The notes beneath the pieces were generated by a model. That model searched no databases, was not told where the DNA came from, and was given only the letters and a program-made list of their open reading frames with translations. From contig JAJTYZ010000008.1 in the NCBI GenBank assembly GCA_021463515.1, positions 1 to 47,765 of the forward strand: a stretch of DNA of 47,765 bases. The letters run 5' to 3'. A program made the translations under genes and the position numbers. Below, in pieces: positions 640-15,553 of the stretch. Every line of letters begins with the position of its first letter. The first letter of the stretch is position 1. This DNA is from Chthoniobacterales bacterium. GTDB taxonomy: Bacteria; Verrucomicrobiota; Verrucomicrobiia; Chthoniobacterales; JACTMZ01.

Positions 640-2825
640 ACGATCCACGTATCACATCCTATGCCCTCGGCGAACTCGAAGGGCCGACCTGCGAGGCTTT
701 CGAACGCGAGCTGGCCGCCAGCGATGACTTGCAAAAGCATCTCAACGAAACCATCAACCTCGCCAAGGCTCTTGGCACTCTTCCTATGCCTAACGAACAA
801 CTCGAAAATCGCGACGCCTTGCTCGAACAATGCGCCAAAAATCAATCACGCAGCCGCAAAAGAAACATTCTGCGACTGGTCATGCCAATCAGCCTCGCGG
901 CCGCAGCAAGCCTTGTGGCCGTCGCCGTACTCAATCAGGCGGAAAGGCCCGAGTCCGCGAGCCTCGCGGTTTCCGCGCCTGCCGAAAAATCCGCGAACGA
1001 AATCGCCAGACACGCGCCGCCAAGCCCGGTCATGGGCCCGCCGCCTCGCGCCGCCGCCCCGGTGGAAGCTCCGCTCTCAGTCGCCGCTGCCACCGCTGCG
1101 CCGCAGCACCTTTCGCGCACGCGGCAGGTGGAGCAGCCCGTTGACGTACGCGCTGCTCCTGTAGCGGGAAATGTAGAAATCGCTGAAGCTTCACAAATAC
1201 GAGATTTCACCGGCAGCTGGCGCGCAGGCCGCGGCACAGGTACAGGCGTCGCCCGTGCAGCGGCAGACTTTGAAGGATTTATTCACTATGGCTCTCCGAT
1301 AGCCGTCGTCTCCGGAGCGGACGCCAACATCCGCACCCGCTCCGACGAGTGGAACACCGAGGGCTACAATGCCATCCGGGAAAACGCCTTCCTCGACGCG
1401 AAACAGAATCCGCTCTCGACGTTCTCGATTGACGTGGACACGGCGAGCTACGCGAACGTGCGCCGCTTCCTGCGCGACGGGACGTTGCCGCCCACCGGAG
1501 CCATTCGCACCGAGGAACTGCTGAATTATTTTCCCTACAACGACCCACAGCCCAAGGACGCCGCCCCGTTCTCGGTGAATCTCGAAGTCGCCACCGCGCC
1601 GTGGGATGCGGAGCGTCTGCTGGTTCGCATCGGGCTGAAAGGAAAAGAAATCCCCGCCTCCGAACGCGCCCCGGCCAACCTCGTTTTCCTCGTGGACGTG
1701 TCGGGTTCGATGGAGATGCCCAACAAGCTCCCGCTCCTGAAACGCAGCCTGCGCGCCCTCGTGGAAAATCTCTCCGACCGCGACCGCGTGGCCCTCGTGG
1801 TCTATGCGGGTTCGTCCGGGCTCGTGCTGCCCTCCACGCCCGGCACGCGGAAACAAGACATCCTTGCCGCACTCGACAACCTCCAGGCTGGTGGCGGCAC
1901 GCACGGCAGCGAGGGCATCAAACTTGCCTACGAAACCGCGCGGGAAAACTTTCTCAAAGAAGGCTCCAACCGCGTCATCCTCTGCACCGACGGCGATTTC
2001 AACGTCGGCGTGACCAGCCAGAGCGAATTGCAAAAGCTCATCGAACGCGAGCGTGCCTCCGGCGTGTTTCTCTCCGTCCTCGGCTTTGGCACGGGCAATG
2101 TGAAGGACTCGACTATGGAGTTGTTGGCCGACAAGGGCAATGGCAACTACGCCTACATTGATACGCCTAACGAAGGCCGCAAGGTACTCGTCGAACAAAT
2201 GGGATCAACGCTCTTCACCATCGCCAAGGACGTAAAAATCCAGGTGGAGTTCAACCCCGCACGCGTGGCGGCCTATCGCCTCATCGGCTACGAGAACCGT
2301 CTGCTCGCCAAGGAGGATTTCAACGACGACACCAAGGACGCAGGTGAAATCGGAGCCGGCCACACCGTGACCGCGCTCTACGAAATTATCCCCGTCGGTA
2401 AAAAAATCCCAGGCGGCCCTTCCGTGGATCCTCTCAAATACCAGCTGCCCGTGCCCGTGGTGTCCGGCTCCGCCGCCCCTGTCTCCGACGATCTCCTCAC
2501 CGTCAAGCTCCGCTTCAAACAGCCCGACGGTGACAAAAGCCAACTTCTCGAAGTGGCACTGCCCTCCCCCGAAAGCGTCTCGTCCTTCGAACAAGCCTCA
2601 TCCGACTTCCGTTTCGCCGCCGCCGTGGCCGCCTTCGGCATGAAACTGCGCAGCTCGCCCAACGCGGGAAACATCACGTGGGACGACATGCTACGCATCG
2701 GCCGTCAGGCCCTCGGCGACGATCCCGGCAGCTACCGCGCCGAATTTCTCACTCTCATCGAAGCCGCAAAAAAGCTCGCTCTCGAACCAAAAGCAGACCA
2801 TGACAAATCACCAACCCAACCATGA
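636..2825 (+). CDS. Membrane anti-sigma-like protein fused to a YfbK-type von Willebrand factor A domain
   Basis: The 729-residue protein has three parts. Residues 1-60 (opening MNDPRITSYALGELEG) resemble the cytoplasmic anti-sigma head of many ECF partners but lack zinc-binding cysteines. One membrane helix follows at about residues 83-102, then a low-complexity Ala/Pro linker. From about residue 265 comes a YfbK-type vWF_A N-terminal segment (FSIDVDTASYANVRRFL), a vWA domain with the metal-site motif DVSGS starting at residue 354, and a C-terminal DUF3520-like segment (around KDVKIQVEFNPARVAAYR). Orientation places the vWA domain outside the cytoplasm. Gene order and the ATGA overlap with the sigma gene suggest it holds the sigma factor and releases it on an outside cue. 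Domain calls are from motifs; the signalling role is inference. Confidence 0.85.
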   Translation: MNDPRITSYALGELEGPTCEAFERELAASDDLQKHLNETINLAKALGTLPMPNEQLENRDALLEQCAKNQSRSRKRNILRLVMPISLAAAASLVAVAVLNQAERPESASLAVSAPAEKSANEIARHAPPSPVMGPPPRAAAPVEAPLSVAAATAAPQHLSRTRQVEQPVDVRAAPVAGNVEIAEASQIRDFTGSWRAGRGTGTGVARAAADFEGFIHYGSPIAVVSGADANIRTRSDEWNTEGYNAIRENAFLDAKQNPLSTFSIDVDTASYANVRRFLRDGTLPPTGAIRTEELLNYFPYNDPQPKDAAPFSVNLEVATAPWDAERLLVRIGLKGKEIPASERAPANLVFLVDVSGSMEMPNKLPLLKRSLRALVENLSDRDRVALVVYAGSSGLVLPSTPGTRKQDILAALDNLQAGGGTHGSEGIKLAYETARENFLKEGSNRVILCTDGDFNVGVTSQSELQKLIERERASGVFLSVLGFGTGNVKDSTMELLADKGNGNYAYIDTPNEGRKVLVEQMGSTLFTIAKDVKIQVEFNPARVAAYRLIGYENRLLAKEDFNDDTKDAGEIGAGHTVTALYEIIPVGKKIPGGPSVDPLKYQLPVPVVSGSAAPVSDDLLTVKLRFKQPDGDKSQLLEVALPSPESVSSFEQASSDFRFAAAVAAFGMKLRSSPNAGNITWDDMLRIGRQALGDDPGSYRAEFLTLIEAAKKLALEPKADHDKSPTQP

Positions 2826-4243
2826 AAACCCTCGCTCTCCTTCTCGCCATTCCCACAATCGCCTTCGCTGCGCCGGGCCTGACCATCTATAATCAAAACT
2901 TCGCCGTAGTGCGCGACACCATCCCGCTCGACCTCAAAGCCGGTGTCAACGACGTAACGTTCGATGGTGCTACCGCCCAGCTTGAGCCGGACTCGGTGAT
3001 CCTTCGTGATCCTCAAGGTCGCCCAATTTCCATTCTCGAACAAAACTATCGCAACGACCCCGTGACACAGTCGCTTCTGCTCTCGCTTTTCGAGGGAAAA
3101 GAGATTGATTTTTTCGTTCGCGAGATCAACAAGCCCGATCGTACCGTACGCGGCAAAGTGATCCGCTCCGGCTACGGACAGCCCGGCGAGGCCAGTCAGC
3201 CCGTGATCGAGATAGATGGAAAAATTCAATTCGGCCTCCCGGGAATGCCGGTATTTCCTTCACTCGGTGATGATACCATCCTCAAACCACGCCTCGCATG
3301 GAAAATCAATGCGTCCCACCCTCTCCAAACGGACGCCGAGCTGGGCTATGTCACCGGCGGATTAAGCTGGAGCGCAAGCTACAACCTCGTAGCACCGGAG
3401 AAAGGCGACATCATTGACTTCGTCGGCTGGATCACCATGCAAAATCAGAGCGGACGTACCTTTGAAGACGCCAAAATCAAACTTCTCGCGGGCGATGTGA
3501 ATAAAATCCAACCCGTCGTGAGCAGGATGAAGATGAGAGGAGGCATGACGATGGCCGCTCCCATAATGGATGAATCTGCCGTCAGCGAAAAAGCCTTCGA
3601 TGAATTTCACCTCTACACCCTAGGGCGTCCAACTACCCTGCGTGATCGCGAAACCAAGCAAGTCGAGTTTGTCCGCGCCTCCGGAGTAAAATCCGAAACG
3701 ATTTACGTCTATGACGGCCTCGGCCTCATGCGCCAAGGATTCGTCAGTGGAACGGTCGGCGATAATCCGAACTTTGGAACCCAAAGCAACACCAAGGTCG
3801 CCGTGCTGCGAGAATTCAAAAACAGCAAAGAAAACAATCTCGGCATCGCCCTACCAAAAGGTCGCGTCCGCTTTTACCGCACGGATGGAACAAACCTCGA
3901 ATTCATCGGAGAAAATGAAATTGATCACACCCCGACCGATGAAATCATCAAGCTCAAAACCGGTGATGCCTTCGACATCGTCGGCGAGCGCAAGCGCACC
4001 GATTTCAAGGTGAACACCTCCAATAAATGGGCGGACGAAAGTTTTGAAATCGAACTACGCAACCGCAAAAAAGAGGCCGCGACCGTCCGCGTTATTGAAC
4101 ATCTGATGCGCTGGGCCAACTGGAGCATCTCAGCCAACAGCGACGATTTCACCAAGCTCAACTCCGACCAGATCGAATTCCGCATCGCCCTCAAACCCGG
4201 CGAAGAACGCAAAATCACCTACACCGTTCACTACACATGGTAG
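2822..4243 (+). CDS. Secreted DUF4139 domain-containing protein
   Basis: The 473-residue protein starts with a signal peptide (MKTLALLLAIPTIAFA, cleavage near residue 16) and so should be exported. The mature part begins LTIYNQNFAVVRDTIPLDL and continues with the beta-rich layout of DUF4139 proteins, ending in a segment with EIELRNRKKEAATVRV and a final KITYTVHYTW strand. The family has no established enzymatic function; members occur as secreted or surface proteins in many bacteria. Its ATG overlaps the stop of the vWA gene (ATGA), making it the third gene of the sigma/anti-sigma operon. An exported partner of the vWA domain is plausible but not shown. Family call is fairly firm, role unknown. 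Confidence 0.83.
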   Translation: MKTLALLLAIPTIAFAAPGLTIYNQNFAVVRDTIPLDLKAGVNDVTFDGATAQLEPDSVILRDPQGRPISILEQNYRNDPVTQSLLLSLFEGKEIDFFVREINKPDRTVRGKVIRSGYGQPGEASQPVIEIDGKIQFGLPGMPVFPSLGDDTILKPRLAWKINASHPLQTDAELGYVTGGLSWSASYNLVAPEKGDIIDFVGWITMQNQSGRTFEDAKIKLLAGDVNKIQPVVSRMKMRGGMTMAAPIMDESAVSEKAFDEFHLYTLGRPTTLRDRETKQVEFVRASGVKSETIYVYDGLGLMRQGFVSGTVGDNPNFGTQSNTKVAVLREFKNSKENNLGIALPKGRVRFYRTDGTNLEFIGENEIDHTPTDEIIKLKTGDAFDIVGERKRTDFKVNTSNKWADESFEIELRNRKKEAATVRVIEHLMRWANWSISANSDDFTKLNSDQIEFRIALKPGEERKITYTVHYTW

Positions 4244-4321: not shown

Positions 4322-4993
4322 ATGATGCGGGGAATGCTTGAACTAATGCAAAAAGGTGGACCTGCCATGTGGGTCATTCTTGTCGTGAGTATTCTCGGTG
4401 TCGCCATATTTCTTGAACGCTTGATTTATCTGCATCGGGTGCAACTTAACGTGGGGAAATTTCTTCTAGGCCTCGGAAATCTCGTGCGTGATGAACGCTA
4501 TGAGGAGGCGCGCCAGCAATGTACTTTTGCGGGGGGGCCTGTGGGGCGTGTGGCTTTAAGTGCGATGCAAGCACGTGATCGTTCGCGGGCGGAGCTGCGT
4601 GACATCGTGCAAGAAGCAGGGCAGTTGGAGGTTCCAAATTTAGAGCGTCATATACCCATGCTCACCGCCTTAGCTTACACGGCGCCCTTGCTGGGCTTGT
4701 TGGGAACAGTGTTGGGTTTGTTGGAAGCATTTTATCTCATTTCAACGCAAGGGGGGTATGCCACCGTGGCCGATCTTTCCGGTGCCGTTTTTCAAAGTCT
4801 CATCGCCGCCGCTGCAGGGCTTGCCGTGGCGATTCCGGCGTTTGTCGGCGTGAGTTATTTGTCGGCGCGAGTGCAGGATACCATTCACGACATGGAACGC
4901 GTCGGCATCGAAATGGTAAATCTCCTCAAAAATCGCACCTTGCTCACGGCGGAACTTTTGGCGCCGGAAGGGGAACCCGTAGATAACGCATGA
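4322..4993 (+). CDS. MotA/TolQ/ExbB proton-channel family protein with altered channel residue
   Basis: The 223-residue membrane protein has the ExbB/TolQ layout: a first helix at about residues 15-32 (MWVILVVSILGVAIFLERL), a cytoplasmic loop, then two helices at about 115-138 and 153-180. The GLLGTVLGLLEAF motif is intact with its Thr at residue 129. The usual ALIATAxGL motif of the third helix reads SLIAAAAGLAVAIPA, so the position of the conserved Thr is Ala163. It is the first of four tightly packed genes (ExbB, ExbD, TonB-like, zinc ribbon) joined by ATGA overlaps, so it should form the motor of that unit. A start at 4334 is also possible. Family membership is certain; whether it conducts protons is doubtful. 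Confidence 0.9.
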   Translation: MMRGMLELMQKGGPAMWVILVVSILGVAIFLERLIYLHRVQLNVGKFLLGLGNLVRDERYEEARQQCTFAGGPVGRVALSAMQARDRSRAELRDIVQEAGQLEVPNLERHIPMLTALAYTAPLLGLLGTVLGLLEAFYLISTQGGYATVADLSGAVFQSLIAAAAGLAVAIPAFVGVSYLSARVQDTIHDMERVGIEMVNLLKNRTLLTAELLAPEGEPVDNA

Positions 4994-5388
4994 AGCTGCA
5001 GGGTTCGCTACGAACGTATGGCGTGTTGCCGGTGCTGACCGGAGCGATCACTGTCGTGTTGTTGCTGATTTTTTTTATCCTGCTTTCGACTTCGTTCTTG
5101 TTGCAACCGGGCGTTGCCGTCGAATTGCCTACGTCGCAATTTTTGAAGCCTGCCGCTCAAGACCCACTCGTTGTCGCGATCACCGCAGATCCGGGGGCGG
5201 CGATTTATTTTGAGGATCGCGCAGTTGCTTTTGAGCATCTCGCGGCGCGACTTGAAGCCCGTCGCAAATCTTCCCGCCATGTGGTTATTAAAGCAGACCG
5301 TATGGCACCGCTGTCGCTCGTGACGCGTGTGACCGAGCTAGCACTTTCTCACAGTTTCTCCGTTTCTTTAGCCGCATCGCGTCCATGA
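4990..5388 (+). CDS. ExbD/TolR family protein lacking the transmembrane aspartate
   Basis: The 132-residue protein has a short cytoplasmic tail, one membrane helix at about residues 14-36 and a small periplasmic domain typical of ExbD/TolR (QPGVAVELPTS after the helix; HVVIKADRMAPLSLVTRV near the end). In ExbD and TolR the helix begins P-x-x-D, and that Asp carries protons. Here the segment reads LPVLTGAITVVLLLIFF, with Thr17 at the Asp position. The second ExbD in this window (15140-15553) keeps the Asp. The start overlaps the ExbB stop (ATGA) and the stop overlaps the next start. The family call is firm; loss of the Asp suggests a non-canonical or proton-independent complex. Confidence 0.88.
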   Translation: MKLQGSLRTYGVLPVLTGAITVVLLLIFFILLSTSFLLQPGVAVELPTSQFLKPAAQDPLVVAITADPGAAIYFEDRAVAFEHLAARLEARRKSSRHVVIKADRMAPLSLVTRVTELALSHSFSVSLAASRP

Positions 5389-6110
5389 TAATTCCCGAGC
5401 GCATTCTGCAGGTTTTTCAATGGCCGGAGAAATATCCGATTCGTTTGCTATTGCCGACGATGTTGGCGGTATCTGCCTTCGTTCACGCCGCAGGGTTTTA
5501 TCTCGTACGCACGACGTGGCCGCAGCGCGGAGTTTCCATGCCCCCTCCACCGGTGGCGATCACGCTTTATCCTAGCGGTGATAATTCCCTGTTGCTTGGG
5601 GCGCGTGATCCTTCGTGGTTGGAGCCGGGCCGTTTTCGCGATCGCATGTTGCCGTCGCCTCATATCACACGATCCCACCGCGCACTCGAACCGATTTTGC
5701 CCGAGCTGCTACCTCCTCCGGCTAGGGAAGTACCAACATATTGGATTCCTGCTCTCCCGCCACTTGACGTGCGTCCGCTACTCACCGCATTCGTAGAAAA
5801 ATCCGAGCCTGTACATTTGCAACCCGTGACGGCACGATTTACGGAAGGGCATTGGGGCGTGACGGATGATTTGCTTTCGCGCTTGCGTGTCGTGGCACCG
5901 GCGGAGCCGCCCGGGGCACCGACAGAATTGCTCGTGGTGTTGGATGCCGCCGGTGAAGTTCATAATGTTTGGTTGCTGCGTGGATGTGGTGTTGCGGAGG
6001 TGGACAAGGCGGCGCAGATGGCCGTGCAACGTTCGCGTTTTGATCCGCCCGGGCAAATGCGTCAGGGTATTTTACGAGTGACGTGGGGAGCGACGGAGGT
6101 GAAACCATGA
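5385..6110 (+). CDS. TonB-like energy transducer protein
   Basis: The 241-residue protein has a single N-terminal membrane helix at about residues 20-41 containing S30-AFV-H34, the same S-x3-H spacing as the functionally important Ser/His of the TonB membrane anchor. A proline-rich stretch follows (PPPPVA, then ILPELLPPPAREVP). The C-terminal 70 residues (TELLVVLDAAGEVHNVWLL, then VDKAAQMAVQRSRFDPP) look like a TonB C-terminal domain, which in the family binds TonB-dependent receptors. Gene order after ExbB and ExbD, with ATGA overlaps on both sides, supports a TonB role. The periplasmic linker is shorter than in classical TonB, and no TonB-dependent receptor gene is in the window. The name is inferred from layout plus motif. 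Confidence 0.75.
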   Translation: MIIPERILQVFQWPEKYPIRLLLPTMLAVSAFVHAAGFYLVRTTWPQRGVSMPPPPVAITLYPSGDNSLLLGARDPSWLEPGRFRDRMLPSPHITRSHRALEPILPELLPPPAREVPTYWIPALPPLDVRPLLTAFVEKSEPVHLQPVTARFTEGHWGVTDDLLSRLRVVAPAEPPGAPTELLVVLDAAGEVHNVWLLRGCGVAEVDKAAQMAVQRSRFDPPGQMRQGILRVTWGATEVKP

Positions 6111-6349
6111 TTCGCGCCGGTTTGGCCACACTGCTCTTTGCCTATGCTGGCGTTTTTCTTGCGGCGATTCTTGTGCTTTGGCTAGTCTATGGGCTTGGAC
6201 GTGTTCGGCGACGGCACCGCGACCGCATTGGATTGTTCCAGTGCCGGCTTTGTGCTGAATGGCTCCGGCACCGCGACCAACACAGTCTCGTTCGCTGTCC
6301 GTCCTGCGGCGCAATGAACGAACCAACAATAACAGGCAACGCTATTTAG
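6107..6349 (+). CDS. Small membrane protein with a C-terminal zinc-ribbon motif
   Basis: Starting at the ATG that overlaps the previous stop (ATGA), this encodes 80 residues. One membrane helix covers about residues 4-27 (LATLLFAYAGVFLAAILVLW), a basic stretch follows (GRVRRRHRDR), and then two cysteine pairs, CRLC and CPSC, spaced 18 residues apart as in zinc ribbons. The zinc head would lie on the cytoplasmic side by the positive-inside rule. It is the last gene of the ExbB/ExbD/TonB-like unit. I do not recognise a named family. A longer start at 6083 exists but would bury 28 bases in the TonB-like gene, so the overlap start is preferred. Confidence 0.72.
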   Translation: MIRAGLATLLFAYAGVFLAAILVLWLVYGLGRVRRRHRDRIGLFQCRLCAEWLRHRDQHSLVRCPSCGAMNEPTITGNAI

Positions 6350-15139: not shown

Positions 15140-15553
15140 GTGAATTTTCGCAAACAATCCACGCTCGAAGCACCGGGGTTTCAGATTGCTCCGATGGTGG
15201 ATATTGTTTTTTTGCTGCTAATTTTCTTTCTTGTGACATGGAATTTTGCACGGCATGAAACGGAGCTTGATGTAAAAGTACCGACCGCCAAGGAGGGCAA
15301 AGAGTCGCGACGTTCGGTGGGTGAGGTTATTATCAATGTGAAAAGTGATGGCACGATCATGATGAATCGGCGGGTGATGACAGGCCAAGAACTCGGGGAT
15401 ACGTTGCGAAAAATTTCCGAGCTTTATCCCGATCAGGCGGTGATTTTGCGCGGCGACGAATCGGCGGATTATCGGCATATCGTAGCGGTGCTGGATATTT
15501 GCCGCACAGCCAACATTTGGAACGTGGCTTTTGCCACGGGGCGTCCGGAATGA
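15140..15553 (+). CDS. ExbD/TolR family protein (canonical, with membrane aspartate)
   Basis: The 137-residue protein starts at a GTG and has a short cytoplasmic tail, one membrane helix reading APMVDIVFLLLIFFLVTW with Asp21 in place, and a periplasmic domain with VKVPTAKEGKESRRS and AVILRGDESADYRHIVAVLD. In ExbB/ExbD and TolQ/TolR motors this Asp carries protons. Unlike the first ExbD in the window it keeps this residue, but no ExbB/TolQ gene lies beside it. Its stop overlaps the start of the TPR gene (ATGA). It probably works with an ExbB-type protein encoded elsewhere and with the secreted TPR protein. Confidence 0.9.
   Translation: MNFRKQSTLEAPGFQIAPMVDIVFLLLIFFLVTWNFARHETELDVKVPTAKEGKESRRSVGEVIINVKSDGTIMMNRRVMTGQELGDTLRKISELYPDQAVILRGDESADYRHIVAVLDICRTANIWNVAFATGRPE

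Follow-up and report, generated by a model that had tools for sequence, protein, structure and literature searches.

The membrane aspartate of ExbD, TolR, and MotB is regarded as an essential residue of this motor family, and laboratory mutants in which it is changed to asparagine (ExbD D25N and MotB D22N) are either inactive or used as mimics of the protonated state. In ExbD/TolR, this aspartate faces a polar ring of threonines (PMC12215075), and the E. coli ExbD(D25N) mutant is inactive and fails to crosslink (PMC11658791). Here we describe an operon in a 47,765-nucleotide stretch of a Chthoniobacterales genome (GenBank assembly GCA_021463515.1, contig JAJTYZ010000008.1; "the window," to which all positions refer) that encodes a member of the ExbD/TolR family (PF02472) whose transmembrane (TM) helix carries no acidic residue. 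The parts of the operon belong to known families; what appears to be new is the repeated natural loss of an essential residue in a conserved operon that includes a zinc-ribbon gene. No description of a natural Asp-less ExbD or of the Verrucomicrobiota operon was found in the open-access literature searched, outside which most subscription papers and preprints fall.

Layout of the four-gene operon

Four coupled genes lie on the forward strand at positions 4322 to 6349 of the window, in the order exbB, exbD, tonB-like gene, and a gene for a small membrane zinc-ribbon protein, and they are joined by ATGA stop/start overlaps at 4990, 5385, and 6107. The exbB-like gene (4322 to 4993) encodes a 223-residue protein of the MotA/TolQ/ExbB family, which scored 89.2 bits against PF01618 (MotA_ExbB; curated cutoff, 22.9; E = 2.3e-25). 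The exbD-like gene (4990 to 5388), which overlaps exbB by 4 bases, encodes 132 residues comprising one TM helix (residues 12 to 37) and an ExbD periplasmic fold and scored 49.5 bits against PF02472 (curated cutoff, 25.4; E = 5.8e-13). The model of this protein (pLDDT, 79.7) was matched by Foldseek to the periplasmic domain of ExbD (8vgc; E = 8.9e-5; probability, 1.00), and the matches included structures with a bound TonB D-box peptide.

The third gene (5385 to 6110; 241 residues) was assigned as tonB-like by profile and fold. Its product consists of a TM helix (residues 19 to 40) containing S30-x3-H34, a D-box-like strand (PPPPVAITLYP), a linker, and a TonB C-terminal domain (approximately residues 149 to 233); the Ser-x3-His motif of the N-terminal TM helix is present in 11/11 members of the genus. 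As a single sequence, the protein scored 26.8 bits against TIGR01352, for which the cutoff is 27.1, and it also fell just under the Pfam cutoff. A profile built from its orthologs matched solved TonB C-terminal domains (PDB TonB 9ddz; E = 8.8e-7), and the C-terminal domain was confidently predicted in the AlphaFold model, with TonB and TolA domains as the best Foldseek matches (TonB C-terminal domain 9dc4; E = 6.9e-4; probability, 1.00). The fourth gene (6107 to 6349) encodes 80 residues that include a single predicted TM helix and a zinc ribbon of the form CxxC...CxxC; the only Pfam match of this protein was a weak one to DUF7577. Its place in the operon is indicated by its class-wide adjacency, since it adjoins the other genes in most or nearly all class loci with enough flanking sequence and in 17/20 loci at the phylum level. 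Upstream of exbB, six relatives in the genus carry rpmA, encoding ribosomal protein L27 (loci L009, L010, L012, L013, L015, and L016); the window has a different gene, encoding 473 residues, in its place (2822 to 4243), and the upstream side has therefore been rearranged.

Residues at the proton-site columns

A sequence-only reading of the window had proposed that the membrane aspartate of ExbD is replaced by Thr17 (5038 to 5040) within the motif P-V-L-T. Alignment of the orthologs corrected the position of this site. From the start methionine through LxSTSFLLQPG, the ExbD orthologs are collinear and almost gap-free, such that the P-x-x-D motif of Asp-bearing relatives (e.g., PAVDILFLLIFFVLLSSNFILQPG) pairs with G18-A-I-T21 of the window ExbD, and the D column of the profile aligns with TPFIDVMLVLL of the solved ExbD. 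The collinear alignment thus rules out P-V-L-T as the Asp site and places Thr21 (5050 to 5052), four residues downstream, in the column of E. coli ExbD Asp25; Thr17 lies one helical turn upstream. Within the genus, the Asp column is occupied by T in 10 members and by N in 1, and position 17 varies between T and A. The broader proposal, that this ExbD has no membrane Asp, was upheld: the TM helix is free of Asp and Glu in 11/11 genus genomes, no compensating acidic residue was found in that helix anywhere in the genus, and an error confined to a single genome is excluded.

The residues of ExbB had been placed correctly. Thr129 (4706 to 4708, forward strand), the TM2 threonine that corresponds to E. 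coli ExbB Thr148 and TolQ Thr145, is indeed retained, and this position is T in 196/199 orthologs. Alignment to TolQ Thr178 (E. coli ExbB Thr181) confirmed that Ala163 (4808 to 4810, forward strand) occupies the TM3 threonine site, so that this element of the polar ring is missing; Ala is found there in the operon ExbB of 11/11 genus members. The paralogous ExbBs that were read from the genus retain the TM3 Thr.

From these two changes, the sequence-only reading had proposed a matched loss in both partners. Both sites are changed in the window, and among 199 distinct ExbB-ExbD pairs collected from the class, Ala at the ExbB TM3 site was found in 28/101 Asp-less pairs versus 1/98 Asp/Glu-bearing pairs. 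However, most of the Asp-less pairs keep Thr or Ser at this site, and the association was not significant once corrected for descent, with phylogenetically independent contrasts on the 199-pair tree giving 4.3 in the same direction versus 0 in the opposite direction (median P = 0.125) and a 75-row tree giving no signal for co-change of the ExbD Asp and the ExbB TM3 Thr. The comparison of sequences therefore suggests a weak trend rather than a demonstrated co-loss. A search of the 199 pairs for an acidic ExbB site specific to Asp-less members found none. The acidic residue that follows TM2 (E135 of full-length ExbB; position 133 of the trimmed alignment) is D/E in 66/101 Asp-less and in 63/98 acid-bearing orthologs and is not conserved.

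Distribution, repeated change, and selection

The genomes searched comprised 57 relatives and sets of 180 from the order (Chthoniobacterales), 237 from the class, and 145 from the phylum (Verrucomicrobiota). The operon-type ExbB was found almost everywhere in these sets, including 169/180 genomes of the order at an E value of ≤1e-40, and the operon is phylum-wide and vertically inherited. In the 199 orthologs from the class, the Asp column contained 94 D, 4 E, 67 N, 12 T, 7 G, 7 S, 3 Q, 3 A, 1 C, and 1 V. A carboxylate is thus present in 98 and absent in 101 of them, with Asn as the commonest replacement. The column differs between families, being N in 31/31 distinct loci of family f6, to which Chthoniobacter flavus Ellin428 (NZ_ABVL01000002) belongs, and D in 40/45 loci of family f9. 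In 20 further loci from outside the class, D prevailed, and N, G, or S occurred in some; the rows at this depth are more divergent, and their orthology and alignment are less certain. In one subclade of family f5 (L048, L049, and L199), Glu stands in place of Asp, a natural carboxylate swap. As a control, paralogous ExbDs were read in the genus of the window and in eight other genomes of the order, and Asp was present in 57/57 of those that were readable.

On a FastTree tree inferred from the 199 pairs after removal of the two key columns, parsimony required at least 20 changes between acid and nonacid, 13 of which were inside the order. An IQ-TREE subset of 75 rows required at least 11 such changes, and an approximately unbiased (AU) test on this subset rejected a single clade of acid-bearing rows (P = 1.6e-55). 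Parsimony counts have no direction; however, because the outgroup rows of the tree carry Asp, loss is more likely than gain to have been the commoner event, with single reversals possible.

The Asp-less copies remain under strong purifying selection. In close Asp-less pairs, dN/dS was approximately 0.015 to 0.06 for exbB, 0.03 to 0.16 for exbD, and 0.04 to 0.26 for the tonB-like gene (Nei-Gojobori method, with several pairs near saturation), values similar to those of the one Asp-bearing pair tested. By these ratios, all three genes are selectively maintained in the Asp-less copies, most of which also retain the zinc-ribbon gene. Contact elements of the TonB-like protein that are known from E. 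coli are also kept: the TM His is present in 75/83 Asp-less versus 90/92 acid-bearing members, and the proline-flanked D-box-like strand, compared by using a published D-box pattern (PMC10907165), occurs in both groups. Several Asp-less members are also without the TM His (L051 and L054 of family f13; L261 to L263 and L269 of family f33), which may represent a further step away from coupling.

A second ExbD in the window (15140 to 15553), flanked on one side by a leuB-like gene and on the other by a TPR gene, reads APMVDIVF at this site (APMVDIVFLLLIFF) and hence retains the Asp, as the sequence-only reading had stated. Orthologs of this ExbD were found in 11/11 genus genomes, with no neighboring exbB within the stretch read. 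Contig C96 of the window's own genome, G000, carries an orphan ExbB (L004) that keeps the TM3 Thr and has no ExbD beside it within the stretch read; it is a possible partner for the orphan ExbD at 15140. Two genomes of 0.9 Mb, G017 and G027, come from one genus, and the operon of G017 (L039) has Ser at the Asp site. Sole reliance of G017 on an Asp-less complex is ruled out, since one canonical ExbD is also encoded.

With regard to outer-membrane partners, several of the 11 genus assemblies are incomplete and six are at least 90% complete; within this set, the PF00593 receptor barrel was found in 0/11 genomes and the PF07715 plug domain was found in 1/11. The TonB-dependent outer-membrane receptors of a Ton system are thus essentially missing from the genus. 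Because almost none were found, a classical TonB-dependent receptor is an unlikely outer-membrane partner, and the TonB-like arm of the genus probably does not serve such receptors. Judged by eye, receptor number did not clearly track Asp loss over the order as a whole; receptor plugs are many in the Asp-less family f4 and in the mostly Asp-bearing family f9 and almost absent from the Asp-less family f1.

Possible function and comparison with known systems

We favor the interpretation, to which we assign a probability of roughly 0.5, that the operon encodes a Ton complex of known type for which the Asp-based proton cycle is dispensable, most likely one that anchors the TonB-like protein passively, without rotation, or tethers it in a regulated way. 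The ExbB/ExbD complex would presumably still assemble and hold the TonB-like protein, and the membrane carboxylate of ExbD would no longer be required. Because the aspartate faces the threonine ring and D25N is inactive in E. coli, complexes of the Asp-less lineages should be unable to run the protonation/deprotonation cycle of ExbD. Such a complex could serve as a nonrotating inner-membrane anchor by which the TonB-like arm is held in place across the periplasm or, alternatively, as an anchor held in a protonated-like state, which is proposed because Asn is the commonest replacement; the zinc-ribbon protein would perhaps regulate it. The earlier suggestion of a motor that no longer uses protons is therefore sustained in part, in that an unusable ExbD-Asp cycle is well supported and extends beyond the window genome, whereas complete proton independence is something that we infer. 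With slightly less assurance than for the favored interpretation, we suggest that the Verrucomicrobiota possess a distinct four-gene Ton-type system that functions independently of the ExbD proton cycle, a natural family of de-energized 5:2 complexes by which a TonB arm would be held or regulated but which are not proton motors.

Several observations count against an anchor. Approximately half of the orthologs keep D/E, and those of family f9 mostly have D; in some lineages, then, the carboxylate could still be of use. The TM His of TonB and the D-box-like strand are usually read as force-transmission parts, and the genus genomes encode other, Asp-bearing ExbDs, including the orphan that could pair in trans. 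The last of these observations underlies an alternative in which the operon ExbB pentamer or the TonB-like protein is energized by an Asp-bearing ExbD encoded elsewhere, with the Asp-less ExbD as a heterodimer partner whose part is structural or regulatory. Such complementation would be consistent with the presence of the orphan ExbD (15140 to 15553 and its orthologs) in every genus genome, with as many as 9 ExbD matches per genome, and with the heterologous TolR pairs reported for the PVC group (PMC12204202). We nevertheless consider it unlikely, given that the operon retains an exbD of its own, which shares 4 bases with exbB and is under strong selection, that the ExbB site is not visibly kept for an Asp, the TM3 Thr having been lost in the genus, and that the orphan ExbD could pair with the orphan ExbB (L004), which has the TM3 Thr and lies in its own genome. 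It is still less likely that proton drive persists by another route, with Asn, Thr, or Ser plus water, or another polar residue of ExbB, replacing the Asp. Many of the replacements are polar (67 N, 12 T, 7 S, and 3 Q), the TM2 Thr of ExbB is nearly invariant, and the E135 position is frequently acidic in Asp-less orthologs; however, the Asp site is also filled by G, A, C, or V in some orthologs, E135 is neither conserved nor specific to Asp-less members, the genus ExbDs have gained no new conserved acid in the TM helix, and the D25N substitution inactivates E. coli ExbD.

Two further explanations were weighed. The operon might be a degenerating relic in this lineage, as could be argued from G027, one of the two 0.9-Mb genomes, in which neither the operon ExbB nor the operon ExbD was matched, and from the two f13 members that are also without the TonB His. 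Decay is at odds with the intact open frames, with gene overlaps of 4 bases, and with the low dN/dS of Asp-less pairs, as well as with retention of the operon in 169/180 genomes of the order, including that of G017 at 0.9 Mb; we regard decay as very improbable and, to judge from the purifying selection, already largely refuted. An artefact of alignment or assembly, with the Asp lying elsewhere or the window genome being in error, could appeal to the four-residue misplacement at Thr17, but the TM helix is without D or E throughout the genus and the alignment is collinear with both the Asp-bearing relatives and the solved ExbD, and we count this explanation as already refuted.

An ortholog group in which approximately half of the members are Asp-less and the rest of the machine is conserved separates what is needed for assembly and for holding TonB from what is needed to run on protons. 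The natural Asp/Asn sister pairs and a cultured carrier, C. flavus Ellin428, provide material for testing a nonmotor role.

Compared with the E. coli Ton system (TonB-ExbB-ExbD), the operon shares the ExbB/ExbD families, the SxxxH motif of the TonB TM helix, a D-box-like strand, the TonB C-terminal fold, and the periplasmic fold of ExbD. It differs in that the genus ExbD is without the proton Asp and the genus ExbB is without the TM3 Thr, in its fourth, zinc-ribbon membrane gene, in its neighbors, which are housekeeping genes (rpmA, an IMPDH-like gene, and fabF) and not receptor genes, and in the near absence of TonB-dependent receptors from the genus. With Tol-Pal (TolQ-TolR-TolA), it shares the 5:2 motor family, and TolQ is the closest of the solved structures to the operon ExbB; however, the operon contains neither tolB nor pal, the C-terminal domain of the TonB-like protein resembles that of TonB more closely than that of TolA, and the operon proteins fall below the TolQ and TolR equivalog cutoffs. 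The commonest natural replacement is the same Asp-to-Asn change that was made in the ExbD D25N and MotB D22N laboratory mutants, but in the operon it has arisen naturally and repeatedly and has been kept by selection. Finally, the tolQ-tolR clusters with vWA transducers from Verrucomicrobiota and the wider PVC group (PMC12204202) are likewise lineage-specific motors of the TolQ/TolR type; their transducer is a vWA protein, whereas the operon described here combines a TonB-type protein with a zinc ribbon and an ExbD that has often lost its Asp.
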